Origin: Luscinia megarhynchos
Lineage: Eukaryota > Chordata > Aves > Passeriformes > Turdidae
Direction of reading: 5' to 3'
Length of the DNA stretch: 64,000 nucleotides
Assembly (NCBI GenBank): GCA_034336665.1
Contig: CM067584.1
Location: 2,728,001-2,792,000, forward strand
This document shows positions 32,029 through 64,000 of the stretch, piece after piece (positions within the stretch are counted from its first letter, which is position 1; every line of letters starts with the position of its first letter). The position numbers and the translations under genes are program-made. Under the pieces are notes generated by a model that saw nothing but the letters and a program-made list of their open reading frames with translations, was not told the origin of the DNA and did not search any database.

Positions 32029-35000
32029 CTACAGGCTGAGGTCCACCACCACGTGCCGGTACACCAGCGTGTTGGCCTTGAAGCTGGGCGCCAGCAGCAG
32101 CTGCACGTCGGCCGCCGGCACCGCCCGGAACGCCCGCGGCGCCTGCACCGACAGCTCCTGGAACTTGGCGAACTTCTGCTTCTCCTCCTCCCACAGGTAG
32201 ACGTGGGTGAAGGAGAAGTCGCTGCCCAGCGCCAGGTAAAGGCGGCGGCCCACGGCGAAGGGCTGCAGCACCATGGAGCCCCGCGACGGCAGCGTCTGCA
32301 CCTCCACGAAGCGCTGCCCCTCCCAGCGCACCACCTTGGAGTCGCCGATGTAGCGGCTGAGGCACAGGAACTGCTCCCGCTTGGCCCTGAAGTGTTTGAC
32401 CATCTGCACGTCCAGCACCTCGCCCACCTCGCCCTGCGGCACGAACTGCTTCTGCGCCCGGCTCCACTGGTAGATGACGGGCGCCTGCGAGCTGCTGGAG
32501 ATGATCAGCCGCGGTTTGCCGTCGTTCTCCACGTACTCCACGTCGGTGTCGCGGTGCCAGGCGTGGAGGGCTTGGTGGGAGTAAAACCCGTTCTGGTTGA
32601 GGCGGTAGAGGCTGGTGGAGCCCGCCTTGGAGCTGTCGGCGATGACGAAGTACCAGTCGCCCTCGATCTGGAAGGCCTCGATGTCGTTGGGCTTGCGGAT
32701 TTTCTGGCTGTCGATGTCCTGGATCTTGATGAACTTGTCCACGGCCGTGTCCCAGCGGTAAATGTAGGAGCCGCCGAAAAGCTGCGCCACCACCACGTAG
32801 AGCTGCTCCTGCGCCACGATGGGCTTGCAGTGCACCGCCGAGTGAGCTGGCGACAAACCGCGTCACGCCGGGGCTGCGCCCGTCCCACGTCACGCCCAGC
32901 CCGGCCCCCCAGCCCAAATCCTCACCGGGGATGCGGTCGAAGTCGCGGAGTTTGCGCTCCACGTAGTCCCACTTGAGGATGGAGCAGCTGCTGGCGCTGG
33001 GCTGAGCCAGCGCCACGTACAGATCGCTGGCGTAGGTGAAGGGCTCGGCCGACACCGCCTGGAAGGGCAGGACCTGGTGCATCACGAAATCTGCAGCGGG
33101 GAGAGGCGGCAGTGAGCGTCTGAACAGCCAGGGGTGAGGTGACAGGTGACAGGTGACAGGTGACAGGGGACGGCGCTGCCTTACCCGTGGTGATGCACTG
33201 GAAGTCACCGAGCGCCAGGTCCCGGATCCGCTGTCCCTCGAACTGCCCGGGGCTGCTGCAGAAGACGGCGGGGACCGTGGTGTTGGTGCTCTCCAGCCAC
33301 TCCACCAGCCACTTGATCTTGCAGTCACACGCCAGCGTGTTGCCGCGGAGGTCCCTGCAGGGATGGCACCGAGTCACCCGCAGCACCCAGCGGGATGTCA
33401 CCCCTGTCCCCCAGCCAGGGATGGCACCGAGTCACCCCCAGCACCCACCGGGATGTCACCCTCTCCCCAGCTCAGTGTCCCAAAAACCCTGCCAGGGATG
33501 GCACCGAGTCACCCCCAGCCCCTGGGATGTCACCCTGTCCCCAGCCCGATGTCCCCAGCCACCCCTCACAGGTCACTCAGGATGTCCAGCGGCTTGAAGA
33601 GGTCCCGTGGCAGCGTCTGCAGGTTGTTGTTGGCCAAGGACCTGGGGGACGAGAAGAGTCGTGGAGGTGACACCTCCCCGACAGTGACAAAGGGACAGGG
33701 CCACCCCCGCAGCGTCCCCCGGGTGCTCACAGGTGTGTCAGCGACTTGAGCCCGCGGAAAGTGCCTTTTGAGAGCGCCTGGATGTCGTTGTTCTCAATGA
33801 ACCTGGAAGGGCAGCAGAGGGTGACGGGGCCACCCCGAGGGTCACGGGGCCACCCCGAGGGTGTCCCCCCACCCCTGTGCCCCCCGTGTCCCCGTCCCCT
33901 CGTCACACACAGGTACTGCAGGTGCGACAGCCCGGCGAAGGCGTTGTCCCCGATCAGCGTGAACTTGTTGGAGTTGAGGAGGCTGCGAAGAGAGAGGGGG
34001 AGCGTCAGCGCCGGGCTGGGCCGGGCGAGCAGCGGGGCGAGCAGGGGACAGGGGACACGTACAGGAACTGCAGCGAGGGGATGTGGGCGAAAGCCGCCTC
34101 CCGGATCTCCGTGAAGGCCGCGTTCACCATCGTCCTGCCGAGAGACGGAGCCTCAGGCGAGCGGGCGGCACTGCCACCCCCGGGCCCCAGCGGCAGCTCG
34201 GTGCCACCCGCCGGGGCAGCGGGAGGGGACAGAGGGACCCCAGCGGGAGGGGACAGAGGGACCCCAGCAGGAGGGGACAGACGGACCCCAGCAGGAGGGG
34301 ACAGAGGGACCCCAGCGGGAGGGGACAGAGGGAGCCCAGCGGGAGGGGACAGAGGGACCCCAGCGGGAGGGGACAGAGGGACCCCAGCGGGAGGGGACAG
34401 AGGGACCCCAGCGGGAGGGGACACGGGGGGCGAGTGCGGGGGGCTGGCCCCACCCCAGGCTGCCCACAGCCGGCCCGGCGCCGCGGGCGTGCACAGGTGT
34501 GAAAACACGCAGGAGCGAGTGTGTGACACACAGACAGATGTAACACACACAGGTGTGACACACACAGGTGTGACACATAGAGGTGTAACACACACACAGG
34601 TGTAACACACATGAACAGGTGTAACACACATGAACAGGTGTGTAACACACACACAGGTGTAACACACAGGAAAGGGTGTGTGACACACACAGGTGTAACA
34701 CACACACACACAGAGCACACAGGTGTAACACACATGAATGGGTGTGTAACACACACACAGGTGTAACACACACAAGTGTGACACACAGGAACGGGTGTGT
34801 GACACATAGACAGAGGTATAACACACACACAGGTGTAACACACACAGGCGTGACACAGGAATGGGTGTGTGACACATAGACAGAGGTGTAACACACACAG
34901 GTGTAACACACACACAAACAGGTGTAAGACACATGATCGGGTGTGTAACACACACACACAGAGGTGTAGCACACACACACGGATGTGTAACACATACAAA

Positions 35001-36772: not shown

Positions 36773-37701
36773 ATGGACGAGAGCCCCAAAGAGGCGCTGA
36801 TGGAGGAGGCACCTCCGGTAAGGAGCACCCACCGCCCCCCACCCACCGCCCTGAGGGGCTGAGCTGCCCCCGCTGCCACCCCCTGTGTCCCCAACAGAGG
36901 TACACGGAGTCCCCGCGCCTGCCCTGCATCCCCCGCGAGCTCAGGGGCCTCCTGCTGATGGTGGCGCTGGTGGCGGTGGCCCTCGTGGTGGTCAACGTCG
37001 CCTTCCTCCTGCTGGGGCTGCACCTCAGCGAGTCGCACGCCGAGACGGTGAGGGCGGGGAGGGGGGTCGGGATGTTGGCGGGGATGGAGCTCGGCCCCCG
37101 CAGAGCCCCGTGACCCCGCCGCCCCGGCAGGTGCTGCGAATGACCACGCACGGGCTGGAGGGCGAGGGGACCCCCCAGCAGCTCGCCGTGAGCAAGAGGG
37201 AGAGGAGCGCGACGTTCGCGGTGCGGGACGGGCTCAACGCCTCGGCCACGGTGGTGTACGACTACGGCAAGGTGCGTGGGGACCTGGGGACAGCCGCGAC
37301 AGCTGTCGCGACAGGGCGGGGCTGAGCTGAGCCGGCTGTGTCCGCAAACAGCTGCTGGTCGGCTACAGGTCGTGGCGCCGCCGCGGCTGCTACATCGCCC
37401 GCGTGGACAAGGACAACTTCCCGGGGCTGGACGCTGTCACCGAGACCTTCCAGCGGCGCCAGGTGAGCGCAGAGCGCTGGGACGGGGGTGGAGCAGCCCT
37501 GGGTTCGGCACAACTCAAACCTGCCATCCTGGGAATGTGGGGCTGGGGGTTTGTCACCTCTGGAGGGGACACTGTGGGTGGCAGTTCTCTGTCCCGCAGG
37601 GTGAGGAGCTCGGGGACAAGGCCGCGGCTCTGGCTGACCGCTCCATCCTGGGCACCACCATCAACATCCTCTGCAGCGCCGTGCCCGTGTTCTGGGCGTA
37701 G
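36773..37701 (+). CDS. SFTPC: SFTPC, pulmonary surfactant protein C precursor; complete, 5 exons, 182 aa
   Basis: Exons: 36773-36817, 36898-37047, 37131-37271, 37352-37462, 37600-37701. Total 549 nt, each exon boundary in phase 0 (human proprotein 191/197 aa). The start MDESPKEALMEEAPP aligns with the human MDVGSKEVLMESPP. Exon 2 encodes the mature surfactant peptide: one palmitoylation-type Cys (RLPCIPREL), then a Val/Leu-rich type II transmembrane helix (LLLMVALVAVALVVVNVAFL). Exons 3-5 form linker and BRICHOS domain: VVYDYGK, CYIARVDKDNFPGLDAV and ILCSAVPVFWA, holding the family's conserved Asp and paired Cys. The proprotein is made in alveolar type II cells, where BRICHOS chaperones the aggregation-prone helix until the peptide is released in lamellar bodies. 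Difference from human: one juxtamembrane Cys instead of two. Confidence 0.97.
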
Positions 37702-38094: not shown

Positions 38095-38515
38095 ACTGCA
38101 CACCGTGTCCCCATCTGTGTCCTCGAGTGTCCCCATCTGTGTCCCCTGAGTGTCCCCATCTGTGTGCCTCCAGTGTCCCCACCTGTGTCCCCCTGAGTGT
38201 CCCCACTTGTGCTCCTCCAGTGTCCCCATCTGTGCCCCTCCAGTGTCTCCGTCTGTGTCCCCTGAGTGTCCCCATCTGTGTCACCTGAGTGTCCCCATCT
38301 GTGCCCCTCCAGTGTCCCCATCTGTGCCCCCTGAGTGTCCCCATCTATGTCCCCTGAGTGTCCCACCTGTGTCCCCTGAGTGTCCCCATCTGTGTCCCTC
38401 CAGTGTCCCCATCTGTGTCCCCTGAGTGTCCCAATCTGTGCCCTCTGAGTGTCCCCTGAGTGTCCCCATCTGTGCCCTCTGAGTGTCCCACCTGTGCCCC
38501 CCAAGTCTGGAGGAT
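38095..38515. repeat. 22-bp minisatellite downstream of SFTPC
   Basis: About 19 copies of TGTCCCCATCTGTGTCCCCT plus GAG, with CCTCCAG variants. Between the two SFTPC-type genes. Confidence 0.92.
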
Positions 38516-39616: not shown

Positions 39617-39623
39617 TATAAAA
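39617..39623 (+). promoter_or_regulatory. TATA box of the SFTPC paralogue
   Basis: TATAAAA in CCCCAGTATAAAACTGCC, 79 bases before the ATG at 39,696, nearly the same spacing as in SFTPC (82). This suggests the promoter architecture was duplicated with the gene. Confidence 0.7.
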
Positions 39624-39695: not shown

Positions 39696-42016
39696 ATGGA
39701 GAGCAGCATGAAGCAGGTGGTGTTTGAAGAGGAGGTGAGTGCCTGCAGCACCGAGGGGTCCCTGCAGCCAGCTGAGCACCCAGTTCATCCCAGCAAGGCA
39801 CCAGTGCCTGGGGTGGGGGTTTGGGCCATGGGATGGGGGTTGGACCATGGGATGCGGGTTTGGATCATGGGATGGGATTTGGATCATGGGATGGGAGTTT
39901 GGATCATGGGATGGGATTTGGGCCATGGGATGGAATTTGGGCCGTGGGATGGGGGTTGGACCATGGGATGCGGGTTTGGATCATGGGATGGGGTTTGGAC
40001 CCCCGGGAGGGGAGTTTGGACCATGGGATGGGATTTGGGCCATGGGATGGGGGTTTGGACCATGGGATGGGGTTTGGATCATGGGATGGGGTTTGGACCC
40101 CCGGGAGGGGAGTTTGGACCATGGGATGGGATTTGGACCCCGGGGATGGGGATTTAGGCCATGGGATGGGATTTGGACCCCCAGGATGGGGTTTGGACCC
40201 CCGGGATGGGAGTTTGGCCCATGGGATGGGGGTTTGGATCATGGGATGAGGGTTTGGGCCATGGGATGGGGGTTTGGGCCCGCGGGATGGGGGTTGGACC
40301 CCCGGGATGGGGGTTGGATCATGGGATGGGGGTTTGGACCATGGGATGAGGGGTTTGGGCCATGGGATGGGGGTTGGACCGTGGGATGGGGTTTGGAGCC
40401 CCGGGATGGGGTTTAGACCCCCAGGATGAGGGTTTGGACCATGGGATGGAGTTTGGACCATGGGATGGGGGTTTGGACCATGGGATGGGATTTGGACCCG
40501 GGAATGGGGGTTGGACCATGGGATGGGGTTTGGACCCCCGGGATGGGGTTTGGATCATGGGATGGGGTTTGGATCATGGGATGGAGTTTGGACCATGGGA
40601 TGGGATTCGGGCCATGGGATGGGATTTGGGCCATGGGATGGGATTTGGGCCATGGGATGGGATTCGGGCCATGGGATGAGGGTTTGGACCGGGAATGGGG
40701 GTTGGACCATGGGATGGGATTTGGGCCATGGGATGGGGTTTGGACCCCCGGGATGGGATTTGGGCCATGGGATGGGGGTTGGATCATGGGATGGGGTTTG
40801 GACCCCCGGGATGGGGTTTAGACCCCCCAGGATGAGGGTTTGGACCATGGGATGGAGTTTGGACCGTGGGATGGGGGTTTGGACCATGGGATGGGGTTTG
40901 GACCCCCGGGATGGGGTTTGGATCATGGGATGGGGTTTGGACCATGGGATGCTGCATTCCCAGCCCCCAGGAGCAGCGGGATGAGAGCTGCACCCCCACC
41001 CCAACCTCCTGCACCCCCCAGCACCCACCTGCACCCCCCCGACCGCATCCCCCGCACCAGCAGGACTCGGGGAACGGCTGCTGCTGCCCGGGCTGCTGCC
41101 TGCCCTGCGCCAAATGCTGCACCAAATGCAGCGTGTGCTGCGCCAAGTGCTGCACCAGGTGCGGCATGTGCTGCGCCAGGTGCTGCTGCCTGCCCAGGTG
41201 CTGCCGCTGCCCCGAGTGCCCCAAGTGCCCCAAGTGTCCCGGCTGCGGCAGCTGCTCCGGCTGCCTCCTGAAGTCGCTGTGCTTCGTCCCTCGGCTGCTC
41301 TGCTACCTGCCCCGCAAGCTGCTGGGCTGCTGCCACCTCCGCTGCCTGCTGGTGGCGGTGGTCGTGGTGCTGCTGCTGGCGCTCGTCATCGCCGGCGCCC
41401 TGCTGATGCGGCTGAGCGCGGAGCGGAGCCGCGCTGACACCGTGAGTGGGGATCCCCCCAAATGCAGTATGCCCGGGGGAGGGGTTGTTGGAGACTCTGA
41501 GGTCCCCCCTCGCCCCTCTCCAGGTGCTGCGGGGCGGGTTGGGGGCTGGACTGGCGTGGGAAGAGGACGCGGCCACTTTCTACCTGGACGGCGGGGACGG
41601 GAACGCGGCCACGCTGGTCTACGATTACAGGAATGTGAGTGTCGGGGTGCAGGGGGCGCGGGGAGGGGGACACGGGATGGACTGAGCCGGGCTCGGCTCC
41701 CGACAGCTGCTGGTGAGCTACAGAGCCCGGCGGCGCCGCGCCTGCTTCGTGACCCGCGTGGACAAGGACAACCTCCCGGGGCTGGACGCCGTGCTCGGCA
41801 CCTTCCAGCGCCGGCAGGTCAGCACCTGGCTGGGCGGGGGGGCGCGGGGGGCGTGTGCAGCCCCCCCGGTGAGGGATGATGAGGATGATGATGATGATGA
41901 TGATGATGTCCCCTCTGTCCAGGCTGACAAAATCTCCCGTGCCCCTGGCTGACCGCTCCCTCCTGGGCACCACGGCGAGCATCCTCTGCAGCCTCCTCCC
42001 TGTTTATTGGGCTTAA
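39696..42016 (+). CDS. Cysteine-rich SFTPC paralogue (BRICHOS, type II membrane protein), with an apparent frameshift in the last exon
   Basis: Exons: 39696-39734 (MESSMKQVVFEEE), exon 2 ending 41441, 41524-41634, 41707-41817, 41923-42016. All junctions are phase 0, as in SFTPC. Exon 2 may begin at 40971, 41022 or 41061; all three acceptors are phase 0, and 41022 has the best pyrimidine tract. The N-terminal cytosolic part holds about 33 Cys in about 95 residues, in CC, CxC and CCxxC patterns (for example KCCTKCSVCCAKCCTRC). Then comes a basic/Leu-rich joint and a transmembrane helix (CLLVAVVVVLLLALVIAG) ending ALLMRLSAERS, matching human SP-C GALLMGL. The BRICHOS part keeps LVYDYRN, CFVTRVDKDNLPGLDAV and LADRSLLGTT...YWA. 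As read, exon 5 stops at 41,952 (ADKISRAPG); removing one C from the run at 41,942-41,945 restores the conserved ending to 42,016. The Cys domain could be palmitoylated, disulphide-linked or metal-binding. Function is unknown to me. Confidence 0.85.
39815..40965. repeat. 19-21-bp minisatellite filling intron 1 of the SFTPC paralogue
   Basis: About 55 units of ATGGGATGGGGTTTGGACC with variants GATCATGG, GGGCCATGG and CCCCCGGG. The intron is almost nothing but this array. Trp/Gly/Met-rich plus-strand and Pro/Ser/His-rich minus-strand frames are repeat artefacts. Confidence 0.95.
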
Positions 42017-42949: not shown

Positions 42950-43345
42950 GTATCCCTGGAGAGGCTGGCCTCCCTGCAGAGGCTGGGATCTCTGCAGAGG
43001 CTGGGAATCCTGGAGAGGCTGGGAATCCTGGAGAGGCTGGCCTCCCTGCAGAGGCTGGGATCCTGCAAAGGCTGCCCTCCCTGGGGAGGCTGGGATCCTG
43101 CAGAGGCTGGGATCCTGCAGAGGCTGGCCTCCCTGGAGAGGCTCCCTGGAGGGTCCGGGATCCTGGAGAGGCTGGCCTCCCTGCAGAGGCTGGGATCCCT
43201 GGGGAGGCTGGGAAAAGGATCCCTGGAGAGGCTGAGGATCCCCAGAGAGGCTGGGATCTCTGCAGAGGCTGGGAATCCTGGAGAGGCTGGGATCCTGTAG
43301 AGGCTGGGATCCTGCAGAGGCTCCCTAGAGGGGCTGGCCTCGGTA
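42950..43345. repeat. Minisatellite, GAGAGGCTGGGATCCTGCA unit
   Basis: About 20 units of roughly 18-20 bp alternating CTGGAGAGGCTGGCCTCC and CTGCAGAGGCTGGGATC. Confidence 0.9.
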
Positions 43346-43349
43346 CCGG

Positions 43350-44500
43350 AGGGTTCAGGATCGGTACCGGGGAGCAGGATCGGTACCGGGAGGGAGCAGG
43401 ATCGGTACCGGAGAGAGCAGGATCGGTACCGGGGGGATCAGGATCGGTACCGGGGATCAGGATCGGTACCGGAGAGAGCAGGATCGGTACCAGGAGAGCA
43501 GGATCGGTACGGAGAGCAGGATCGGTACCGGGGGTCAGGATCGGTACCGGGGAGCAGGATCGGTACCGGGAGAGAGCAGGATCGGTACCGGGAGGAGCAG
43601 GATCGGTACCCGGAGAGAGCAGGATCGGTACCGGAGAGCAGGATCGGTACCGGGGGGTCAGGATCGGTACCGGGGAGCAGGATCGGTACCGGGGGGTCAG
43701 GATCGGTACCGGGGAGCAGGATCGGTACCGGGGGTCAGGATCGGTACCGGGAGGGATCAGGATCGGTACCGGAGAGAGCAGGATCGGTACCGGGGCGATC
43801 AGGATCGGTACCGGAGAGAGCAGGATCGGTACCCGGAGGGATCAGGATCGGTACCGGAGACAGCAGGATCGAGTACCGAGGGGGATCAGGATCGGTACCG
43901 GGGAGGAGCAGGATCGGTACCGGGGATCAGGATCGGTACCGGGGAGCAGGATCGGTACCGGGGGGATCAGGATCGGTATTGGGGAGGTCAGGATCGGTAC
44001 CGGAGAGCAGGATCGGTACCGGGGAGCAGGAGATGGTACCGGGAGGGATCAGGATCGGTACCGGGGATCAGGATCGGTACCGGAGAGAGCAGGATCGGTA
44101 CCGGAGAGAGCAGGATCGGTACCGGGGAGCAGGATCGGTACCGGGGCGATCAGGATCGGTACCGAGAGCAGGATCGGTACCGGAGAGAGCAGGATCGGTA
44201 GCGGGGGGATCAGGATCGGTACCGGAGAGAGCAGGATCGTACCAGGGAGGATCAGGATCGGTACCGAAAGAGAGCAGGATCGGTACCGGGGAGCAGGATC
44301 GGTACCAGAGGGATCAGGATCGGTACCGGGGAGCAGGATCGGTACCAGAGGGATCAGGATCGGTACCGGAGAGCAGGATCGGTACCAGAGGGATCAGGAT
44401 CGGTACCGGAGGGAGCAGGATCGGTACCGGGGAGCAGGATCGGTACCGGGAGGGATCAGGATCGGTACCGGAGAGAGCAGGATCGGTACCGGGGGATACC
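43350..44500. repeat. Minisatellite of AGCAGGATCGGTACCGG, upstream of BMP1
   Basis: About 55 units of 17-24 bp, most containing the palindrome GGTACC (a KpnI site) followed by GGAGAGAGCAGGATC or GGGGGATCAGGATC. It ends about 300 bp before the BMP1 start codon. Confidence 0.95.

Positions 44501-44808: not shown

Positions 44809-64000
<19,192 letters not shown>

Follow-up and report, generated by a model that had tools for sequence, protein, structure and literature searches.

Surfactant protein C (SP-C) carries two juxtamembrane cysteines that are palmitoylated. We describe here a cysteine-tailed relative of its gene, SFTPC, in a 64,000-nucleotide stretch of DNA from the passerine bird Luscinia megarhynchos (GCA_034336665.1, contig CM067584.1, positions 2,728,001 to 2,792,000, forward strand; 'the window', to which all coordinates below refer). 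An intact SFTPC (gene 1; 36773-37701, + strand) is followed directly downstream by the SFTPC-like gene in question (gene 2; 39696-41952). Gene 2 shares with SFTPC a five-exon plan (the last exon being out of frame in the window copy), an SP-C-like helix, the SP_C-Propep and BRICHOS profiles and a location between LGI-family and BMP1 sequences; it differs in having 14-34 rather than 0-3 cysteines before the helix (in birds), a juxtamembrane motif of its own and, in birds, no PPxY motif. It is a variant within the known SFTPC family, not a new kind of system, and database records of its relatives already exist.

A preprint (PMC12621905) describes the SP-C precursor, proSP-C, as a type II membrane protein whose cytosolic N-terminus is needed for post-Golgi targeting and which receives its palmitate in the Golgi; the title of a study cited in PMC8792467 reports PPDY motif- and Nedd4-dependent transport of proSP-C. 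A divergent second SFTPC-type gene, SFTPC-like, has been described in salamanders, where it is expressed in lung and, in lungless species, in skin and mouth (PMC6191699). Lewis, Dorantes and Hanken (2018) regarded it as apparently confined to salamanders while leaving open an older origin with losses, and the word cysteine is absent from the main text of their paper (PMC6191699). Enrichment of an ordinary vertebrate protein in cysteine is known from sauropsid urate oxidase, which a 2023 survey of single-copy genes described as a unique case among vertebrate orthologues (PMC10517255); that enzyme is unrelated to gene 2, and its cysteines (~5% of residues) are scattered rather than held in one block. 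A sauropsid cysteine-tailed SFTPC paralogue bears on both the salamander-only and the uricase-unique statements.

Dense cytosolic cysteines beside a membrane, such as we propose for the gene 2 tail, are found in cysteine-string proteins (DNAJC5) and other S-acylated tails. Gene 2 differs from DNAJC5 in that a transmembrane helix is already present and the Pfam scan found no DnaJ domain; we know of no sequence kinship between the two. A full-text literature search, with subscription papers mostly outside its scope, gave no paper on a cysteine-rich SFTPC of birds, turtles or lizards among the matches listed. Two chicken lung papers (PMC10593216 and PMC8256237) and two others (PMC11139932 and PMC10993460) mention SFTPC or related terms and, in the portions that matched, not gene 2.

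Structure of gene 2

An earlier note on this DNA had read gene 2 as a tandem paralogue of SFTPC with five phase-0 exons extending to 42016, BRICHOS landmarks, an SP-C-like helix and about 33 cysteines in about 95 residues before the membrane. Exons 1-4 bear this out, with GT/AG borders and phase 0 throughout; exon 5 does not, because a frameshift had been overlooked. The features of the gene, all on the + strand, are:

39696..39734, +, exon 1, MESSMKQVVFEEE, phase 0; avian relatives start alike
39816..40951, +, minisatellite with a 19-bp unit in ~58 copies, occupying most of intron 1
41064..41441, +, exon 2, cysteine tail and transmembrane helix; border as in six songbird relatives
41064..41345, +, cysteine-dense segment, 33 cysteines in 94 residues, ending in the juxtamembrane stretch LCFVPRLLCYLPRKLLGCCHLRC
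41105..41186, +, tandem repeat within the cysteine segment, 33-bp (11-residue) unit, 2.5 copies, 87% matches
41346..41408, +, SP-C-like hydrophobic helix LLVAVVVVLLLALVIAGALLM, recognised from its sequence
41524..41634, +, exon 3, start of BRICHOS (VYDYRN)
41707..41817, +, exon 4, BRICHOS (VDKDNLPGLDAV)
41923..41952, +, exon 5 in phase 0, ADKISRAPG followed by a stop (41950-41952)
41936..42016, +, out-of-frame rest of exon 5, PVPLADRSLLGTTASILCSLLPVYWA, matching the conserved C-terminus of relatives

The spliced window gene matched the Pfam profiles BRICHOS (30.6 bits, 3.9e-7) and SP_C-Propep (26.3 bits, 6.5e-6) above the cut-off of 25 bits applied to each, as did the relatives P0004, P0010, P0041, P0182 and P0186; exon 2 by itself reached 21.5 bits for SP_C-Propep, below the cut-off. 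With an intact SFTPC adjoining, and LGI-family and BMP1 sequences on either side, the assignment as an SFTPC paralogue is upheld, as are the landmarks VYDYRN and VDKDNLPGLDAV, the helix and the cysteine count. The 5′ border of exon 2, for which the earlier note had suggested a check, lies at 41064 between EEE and D(S/P)GNG and is the same in all six songbird proteins compared.

Thirty-three cysteines is the maximum for any stop-free stretch of 95 codons in the six frames of the 64 kb; the runners-up hold 25 each, near 34.8 kb (minus strand, in repetitive-looking frames) and 4.7 kb. Since other frames reach 25, cysteine density alone is no proof of a gene; conservation in other species is. A chance or repeat artefact was rejected on finding the cysteine block, border included, in further species. 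Separately, the minus strand at ~34.2-35.3 kb contains long, repetitive-looking, cysteine-rich open frames that could be mistaken for a cysteine-rich gene.

Relatives in birds, turtles and lizards

When gene 2 was used as a protein query, 56 clusters among 2412 candidates were returned, and all 50 that carried a species name were avian, spanning songbirds, hummingbirds, falcons, ducks, tinamous, kiwi, emu and rhea. Most avian records bear the name pulmonary surfactant-associated protein C-like or surfactant protein C-like. Seventeen of them could be paired with a congeneric gene 1 protein from a contig of equal size (for example Falco, 7814761; Rhea, 5841973; Cuculus, 7209170), the Oxyura contig with the pair being 34,221 bases long; a pigeon model (P0017) fuses both genes, and two white-eye models have adjacent tags (HGM15179_015136 and HGM15179_015137). 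The matching contigs, the fused model and the adjacent tags indicate that the tandem arrangement recurs in other birds.

When the distal cysteine block was left out of the profile, five turtle and two lizard proteins with a cysteine tail (17-24 cysteines before the helix) were found among the best 120 of 213 matches. The expectation of relatives in birds and reptiles was thus confirmed; an avian invention of the tail, or its recent expansion inside birds, is rejected because turtles and lizards carry the tail as well. Beside the membrane, the motif C-[CFS]-[LVI]-P-[RKS]-[LM]-L-[CLYF]-x-L-P-[RK], a pattern composed after viewing the alignment, is present in 41 of 41 relatives (34 avian and seven reptilian) and in none of 30 SFTPC proteins. 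It occurs in 53 of the 188 proteins gathered, namely these 41 and 12 further matches of the avian search, and the stretch from the motif through the helix is nearly invariant between Rhea, kiwi, duck and falcon. PPxY motifs are present in 30/30 SFTPC proteins, 0/34 avian gene 2 proteins and 2/7 turtle and lizard proteins. Given the difference between avian gene 2 and SFTPC, gene 2 is a paralogue and not SFTPC itself.

The motif and PPxY counts used 34 of the 56 avian-search proteins and the cysteine counts below a slightly different 34, in both cases hand-picked as more complete; partial or fused models were left out, several of them without the cysteine block (P0017, P0044, P0045 and likewise P0177 and P0178). 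P0036 also has no distal block. The absence of the block from some models may reflect missing sequence, model error or a real difference. The 30 SFTPC rows comprise the alligator protein and 29 hand-picked from the best 120 of 199 matches, and since only the best 120 of 199 and of 213 were used, the rest could include an ordinary SFTPC of a turtle or lizard.

Four further models, P0086 (Corvus), P0164 (Apteryx), P0042 (Anser) and P0144 (Glareola), apparently join gene 1 and gene 2 exons, and the ends annotated for avian SFTPC may therefore not be dependable. An Anas 'surfactant protein C-like' record (P0175) has no cysteine tail and falls within gene 1 on a long branch (0.20, compared with 0.009 for Oxyura); it is perhaps a third copy in dabbling ducks.

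Conservation and drift of the cysteine tail

Among the 34 birds, the number of cysteines before the helix ranges from 14 to 34, compared with 0-3 in SFTPC (n = 30). Songbirds have 30-34 (six proteins, P0002 being counted among them by its place in the tree), the window copy 33, two suboscines 24-26, other neognaths 17-28 and three palaeognaths 14-21. When the six songbird proteins and the window copy were aligned and columns with at most 20% gaps considered, 29 of 29 majority-cysteine columns were invariant, as were 8 of 16 Lys/Arg columns and 40 of 55 others. The tail is repetitive, with units that differ between lineages: the songbird unit has 11 residues (33 bp), and in Agelaius cysteines spaced by 11 are paired more often than in 499 of 500 shuffles, while the unit of the turtle Emydura has 10 residues (15 pairs versus 6.8 expected, reached in 0 of 500 shuffles). 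The column invariance and the lineage-specific units together indicate that cysteines are kept better than the remaining residues while length drifts by repeat slippage, lineage by lineage.

Expression

The songbird protein P0002 derives from a 957-bp contig (cluster of 17) and is encoded by a single open frame across all five exons; we take its source code, lgn, to denote assembled sequencing-archive contigs. Because one frame covers all five exons, P0002 represents either spliced RNA or a retrocopy. As to the tissue, in duck ovary RNA-seq SFTPC fell from 6.33 to 0.21 and an SP-C-like gene from 7.78 to 0.33, 24-30 times lower in the high-laying group (PMC10887599). This joint fall fits expression of the two genes in the same cell type; perhaps it is due to carry-over of lung.

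State of the window copy

The C-terminal ending of the window sequence, VYWA and a stop, lies in a different frame from exons 1-4, and songbird relatives have AEDKISVPLADRSLLGTTASILCSLLPVYWA, or a sequence close to it, as exon 5. The BRICHOS match accordingly spans positions 2-51 of 91 in the window copy, compared with 2-91 in P0004, P0010, P0041 and the turtle protein P0182 and 2-90 in P0186. The second BRICHOS cysteine is missing from the window reading frame, while avian relatives keep the pair in 34 of 34 proteins (by pattern match); because of this loss we do not class the window copy as a working SFTPC/BRICHOS member. Cys121 of proSP-C is presumably one of this pair. A C121G mutant of proSP-C is reported to be retained in the endoplasmic reticulum, with no further processing or palmitoylation (PMC12621905, preprint). 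The frame break is either an assembly error or a species-level lesion, truncating the window copy.

That gene 2 is a pseudogene in this species appears rather unlikely to us, and would be compatible with the readings of the gene in general given below. The exon 5 frameshift, deleting a BRICHOS cysteine, speaks for it, and so does the end branch of the window gene 2 (0.33, versus 0.049 and 0.024 for its two nearest relatives; the corresponding values for gene 1 are 0.09 versus 0.04 and 0.02). Yet exons 1-4 are undamaged, as are their splice sites, and no private replacement falls on any cysteine. Of the 15 private replacements, 11 are AT to GC, two the reverse and two neutral, the pattern expected of biased gene conversion; six other songbird proteins have 2-18 private residues, the full-length Melospiza protein having 18, and long branches also occur in full-length copies (Taeniopygia 0.16, Nothoprocta 0.71).

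A proposed S-acylated tail

We propose, at close to an even chance, that the gene 2 protein is a type II membrane protein with a cysteine-string-like, multiply S-acylated belt, travelling off the SP-C sorting route. By homology to proSP-C its N-terminal tail, packed with cysteines, would be cytosolic; a single SP-C-like helix would follow, then a linker in the lumen and a BRICHOS domain chaperoning the helix. The conserved juxtamembrane cysteines and many distal ones would be S-acylated in the Golgi, like the two cysteines of proSP-C, and the lipidated tail would form a belt on the cytosolic leaflet, fixing the protein in a particular membrane. Having no PPxY motif, the protein would not follow the NEDD4 route of proSP-C to multivesicular and lamellar bodies. 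Copying of a short unit, 33 bp long in songbirds, would shift the cysteine number while the cysteines themselves are kept; retention combined with variable number is what would be expected if the number of lipid chains, rather than one fixed site, were selected. In an AlphaFold model of P0002 (36 rows), the helix was confident in its first part (mean predicted local distance difference test score, pLDDT, 91 and 84 over residues 111-130) and a weak BRICHOS-like strand pattern and an unstructured tail were visible (mean pLDDT 57, predicted template modelling score 0.32). We consider unlikely the bolder version of this proposal, a hyper-lipidated SP-C relative with up to ~30 S-acylatable cysteines that would predate the split of turtles, lizards and birds and organise surfactant or lamellar membranes in the non-mammalian lung independently of NEDD4, with its chain number tuned between lineages by slippage of a short cysteine repeat. 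Gene 2 lends itself to testing how many acyl chains fit on one membrane protein, and it may have a bearing on surfactant handling in bird and reptile lungs.

Several observations count against an acylated tail or weaken the case for it. No confident tail structure appeared in the P0002 model (block means of 34-59 up to residue 100). The juxtamembrane column before HLRC is cysteine in three and glycine in four of the seven songbird rows, six further cysteine columns are gapped in some of these rows, and the motif position [CLYF] is cysteine in 38 of 41 proteins and Leu or Tyr in the other three. Several public gene models do not contain the cysteine exon, and the window copy is itself frameshifted and on a long branch. 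The fall of both duck genes in ovary may be lung carry-over, and the duck SP-C-like gene may be other than gene 2, as ducks may have another copy (P0175). Finally, the distal block resembles a metal-thiolate tail, with 0-2 His and 0-3 aromatic residues in the 34 birds, and Lys or Arg stands beside cysteine in 9/11 cases in Agelaius, 4/6 in Falco, 6/7 in Rhea, 2/4 in Emydura, 2/3 in Podarcis and 1/1 in Lerista.

Scarce His and frequent Lys/Arg beside cysteine are features of metallothioneins, and metal binding is the main rival. The distal block would then act as a membrane-tethered, metallothionein-like zinc or copper buffer at a secretory membrane, with the juxtamembrane cysteines alone acylated, which we think quite unlikely. 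Enrichment of C-x-x-C is clear in Emydura (14 versus 8.1, reached by none of 500 shuffles), weak in Agelaius (21 of 500) and Podarcis (46 of 500), and absent in Falco (215 of 500) and Rhea (383 of 500); C-x-C lies below the shuffled mean in all five of these lineages, and a range of 10-31 distal-block cysteines among birds is unlike a cluster of fixed stoichiometry. Of the three functions suggested in the earlier note (a multi-palmitoylated anchor, a metal-binding tail or a cornification-type protein), multiple S-acylation of the tail seems most likely, on grounds of homology and expected topology. Both it and metal binding are likelier than disulphides, because a tail that is cytosolic by homology would lie in a reducing place.

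Disulphides would be central if the protein were a crosslinked product of cornifying epithelium, parallel to the cysteine-enriched sauropsid uricase of skin, a reading to which we give the least weight. The co-option of the uricase in reptilian skin (PMC10517255) and the skin and mouth expression of salamander SFTPC-like in lungless species (PMC6191699) are precedents, and the Cys, Pro, Gly and Lys composition also fits; a cornified matrix protein would hardly need the helix and BRICHOS domain, which are retained with both BRICHOS cysteines in 34 of 34 avian relatives, and the papers drawn on, none of which looked for this gene, record no skin expression of it. It is also improbable, though less so, that gene 2 is an SP-C variant reaching surfactant in lung epithelium, with the tail as a removed N-terminal propeptide and gene 2 perhaps the sole SFTPC of turtles and lizards. 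The turtle and lizard helix flanks, CPVHLKR or CPVHIKR, resemble mammalian SP-C, the full tree unites avian genes 1 and 2 to the exclusion of turtles and lizards, and the duck SFTPC and SP-C-like genes covary in the published numbers. Against this stand the absence of PPxY from all 34 avian gene 2 proteins and a cysteine-bearing juxtamembrane run that exceeds that of SP-C in length and hardly varies between four distant birds.

Age of the duplication

A tree of the helix and BRICHOS regions recovered an avian gene 2 clade (support 100/99) and a clade of gene 1 with alligator (99/98), and joined these two to the exclusion of turtles and lizards (99/94). With the helix and exon 3 only, the grouping of gene 2 with turtles and lizards fitted equally well (likelihood 2.06 higher; p value of the approximately unbiased test, p-AU, 0.58), and the archosaur grouping received 66/28. 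With exons 4-5 only, the archosaur grouping received 99/95, and gene 2 with turtles and lizards was 22.8 lower (p-AU 0.14), disfavoured and not rejected. Exons 4-5 also break up genes 1 and 2: a split supported at 98/98 places four gene 1 rows (including Rhea and Apteryx) with four gene 2 rows, on a side that also holds turtles, lizards and an ungrouped human row. In 3 of 16 genera, gene 1 exon 4 is nearest, among all gene 2 sequences, to the gene 2 of its own genus (Rhea, P0165/P0041; Apteryx, P0159/P0038; Cuculus, P0169/P0027), and this within-genus likeness indicates gene conversion.

Two histories remain. In one, the duplication would precede the sauropsid radiation and have been blurred by conversion; in the other, a cysteine-tailed ancestral SFTPC would have been duplicated in archosaurs, with gene 1 then losing the tail. 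Judged from these sequences, the cysteine tail is older than birds under both, unless it arose twice, which is unlikely because the juxtamembrane motif is common to birds, turtles and lizards.

The surrounding locus

The gene pair sits between an LGI-family exon (upstream, on the opposite strand), which by synteny we take to belong to LGI3, and BMP1 (downstream):

32032..32862, - strand, last exon of an LGI-family gene, locus marker; match to LGI1 chains, E 1.1e-106
36773-36817, 36898-37047, 37131-37271, 37352-37462 and 37600-37701, + strand, gene 1, ordinary SFTPC, five phase-0 exons, intact
39617..39622, + strand, TATAAA of gene 2, 79 bp upstream of its ATG; motif match only
59978..60142, + strand, BMP1 astacin exon, locus marker; match to BMP1 chains, E 1.6e-33

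The gap from the end of gene 1 to the start of gene 2 is ~2 kb. Gene 1 is nearest to Cercotrichas and Oenanthe (90%) among the best 120 of 199 protein matches, an affinity that points to the bird probably being an Old World flycatcher or chat. It has its own TATAAA (36691), 82 bp before the ATG (again by motif match only). When the 1 kb upstream of each gene was compared by blastn, the only matches were fragments of 10-12 bp and a region of GGA repeats. Upstream CAAG/CTTG cores were as frequent as in shuffled sequence (gene 1, 2 versus 2.1; gene 2, 3 versus 2.7); longer NKX2-1-like strings, by raw count, numbered 0 upstream of gene 1 and 2 upstream of gene 2.

Minisatellites lie in and around both genes: besides that of intron 1 (39816-40951, 19-bp x 58), they occupy 38105-38467 (23-bp x 16), 43340-44496 (21-bp x 57) and 45478-45883 (21-bp x 19). 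An AT-rich simple-repeat block lies at ~24.1-25.5 kb (GC 0.34 at 24-26 kb), the rest of the window being GC-rich.

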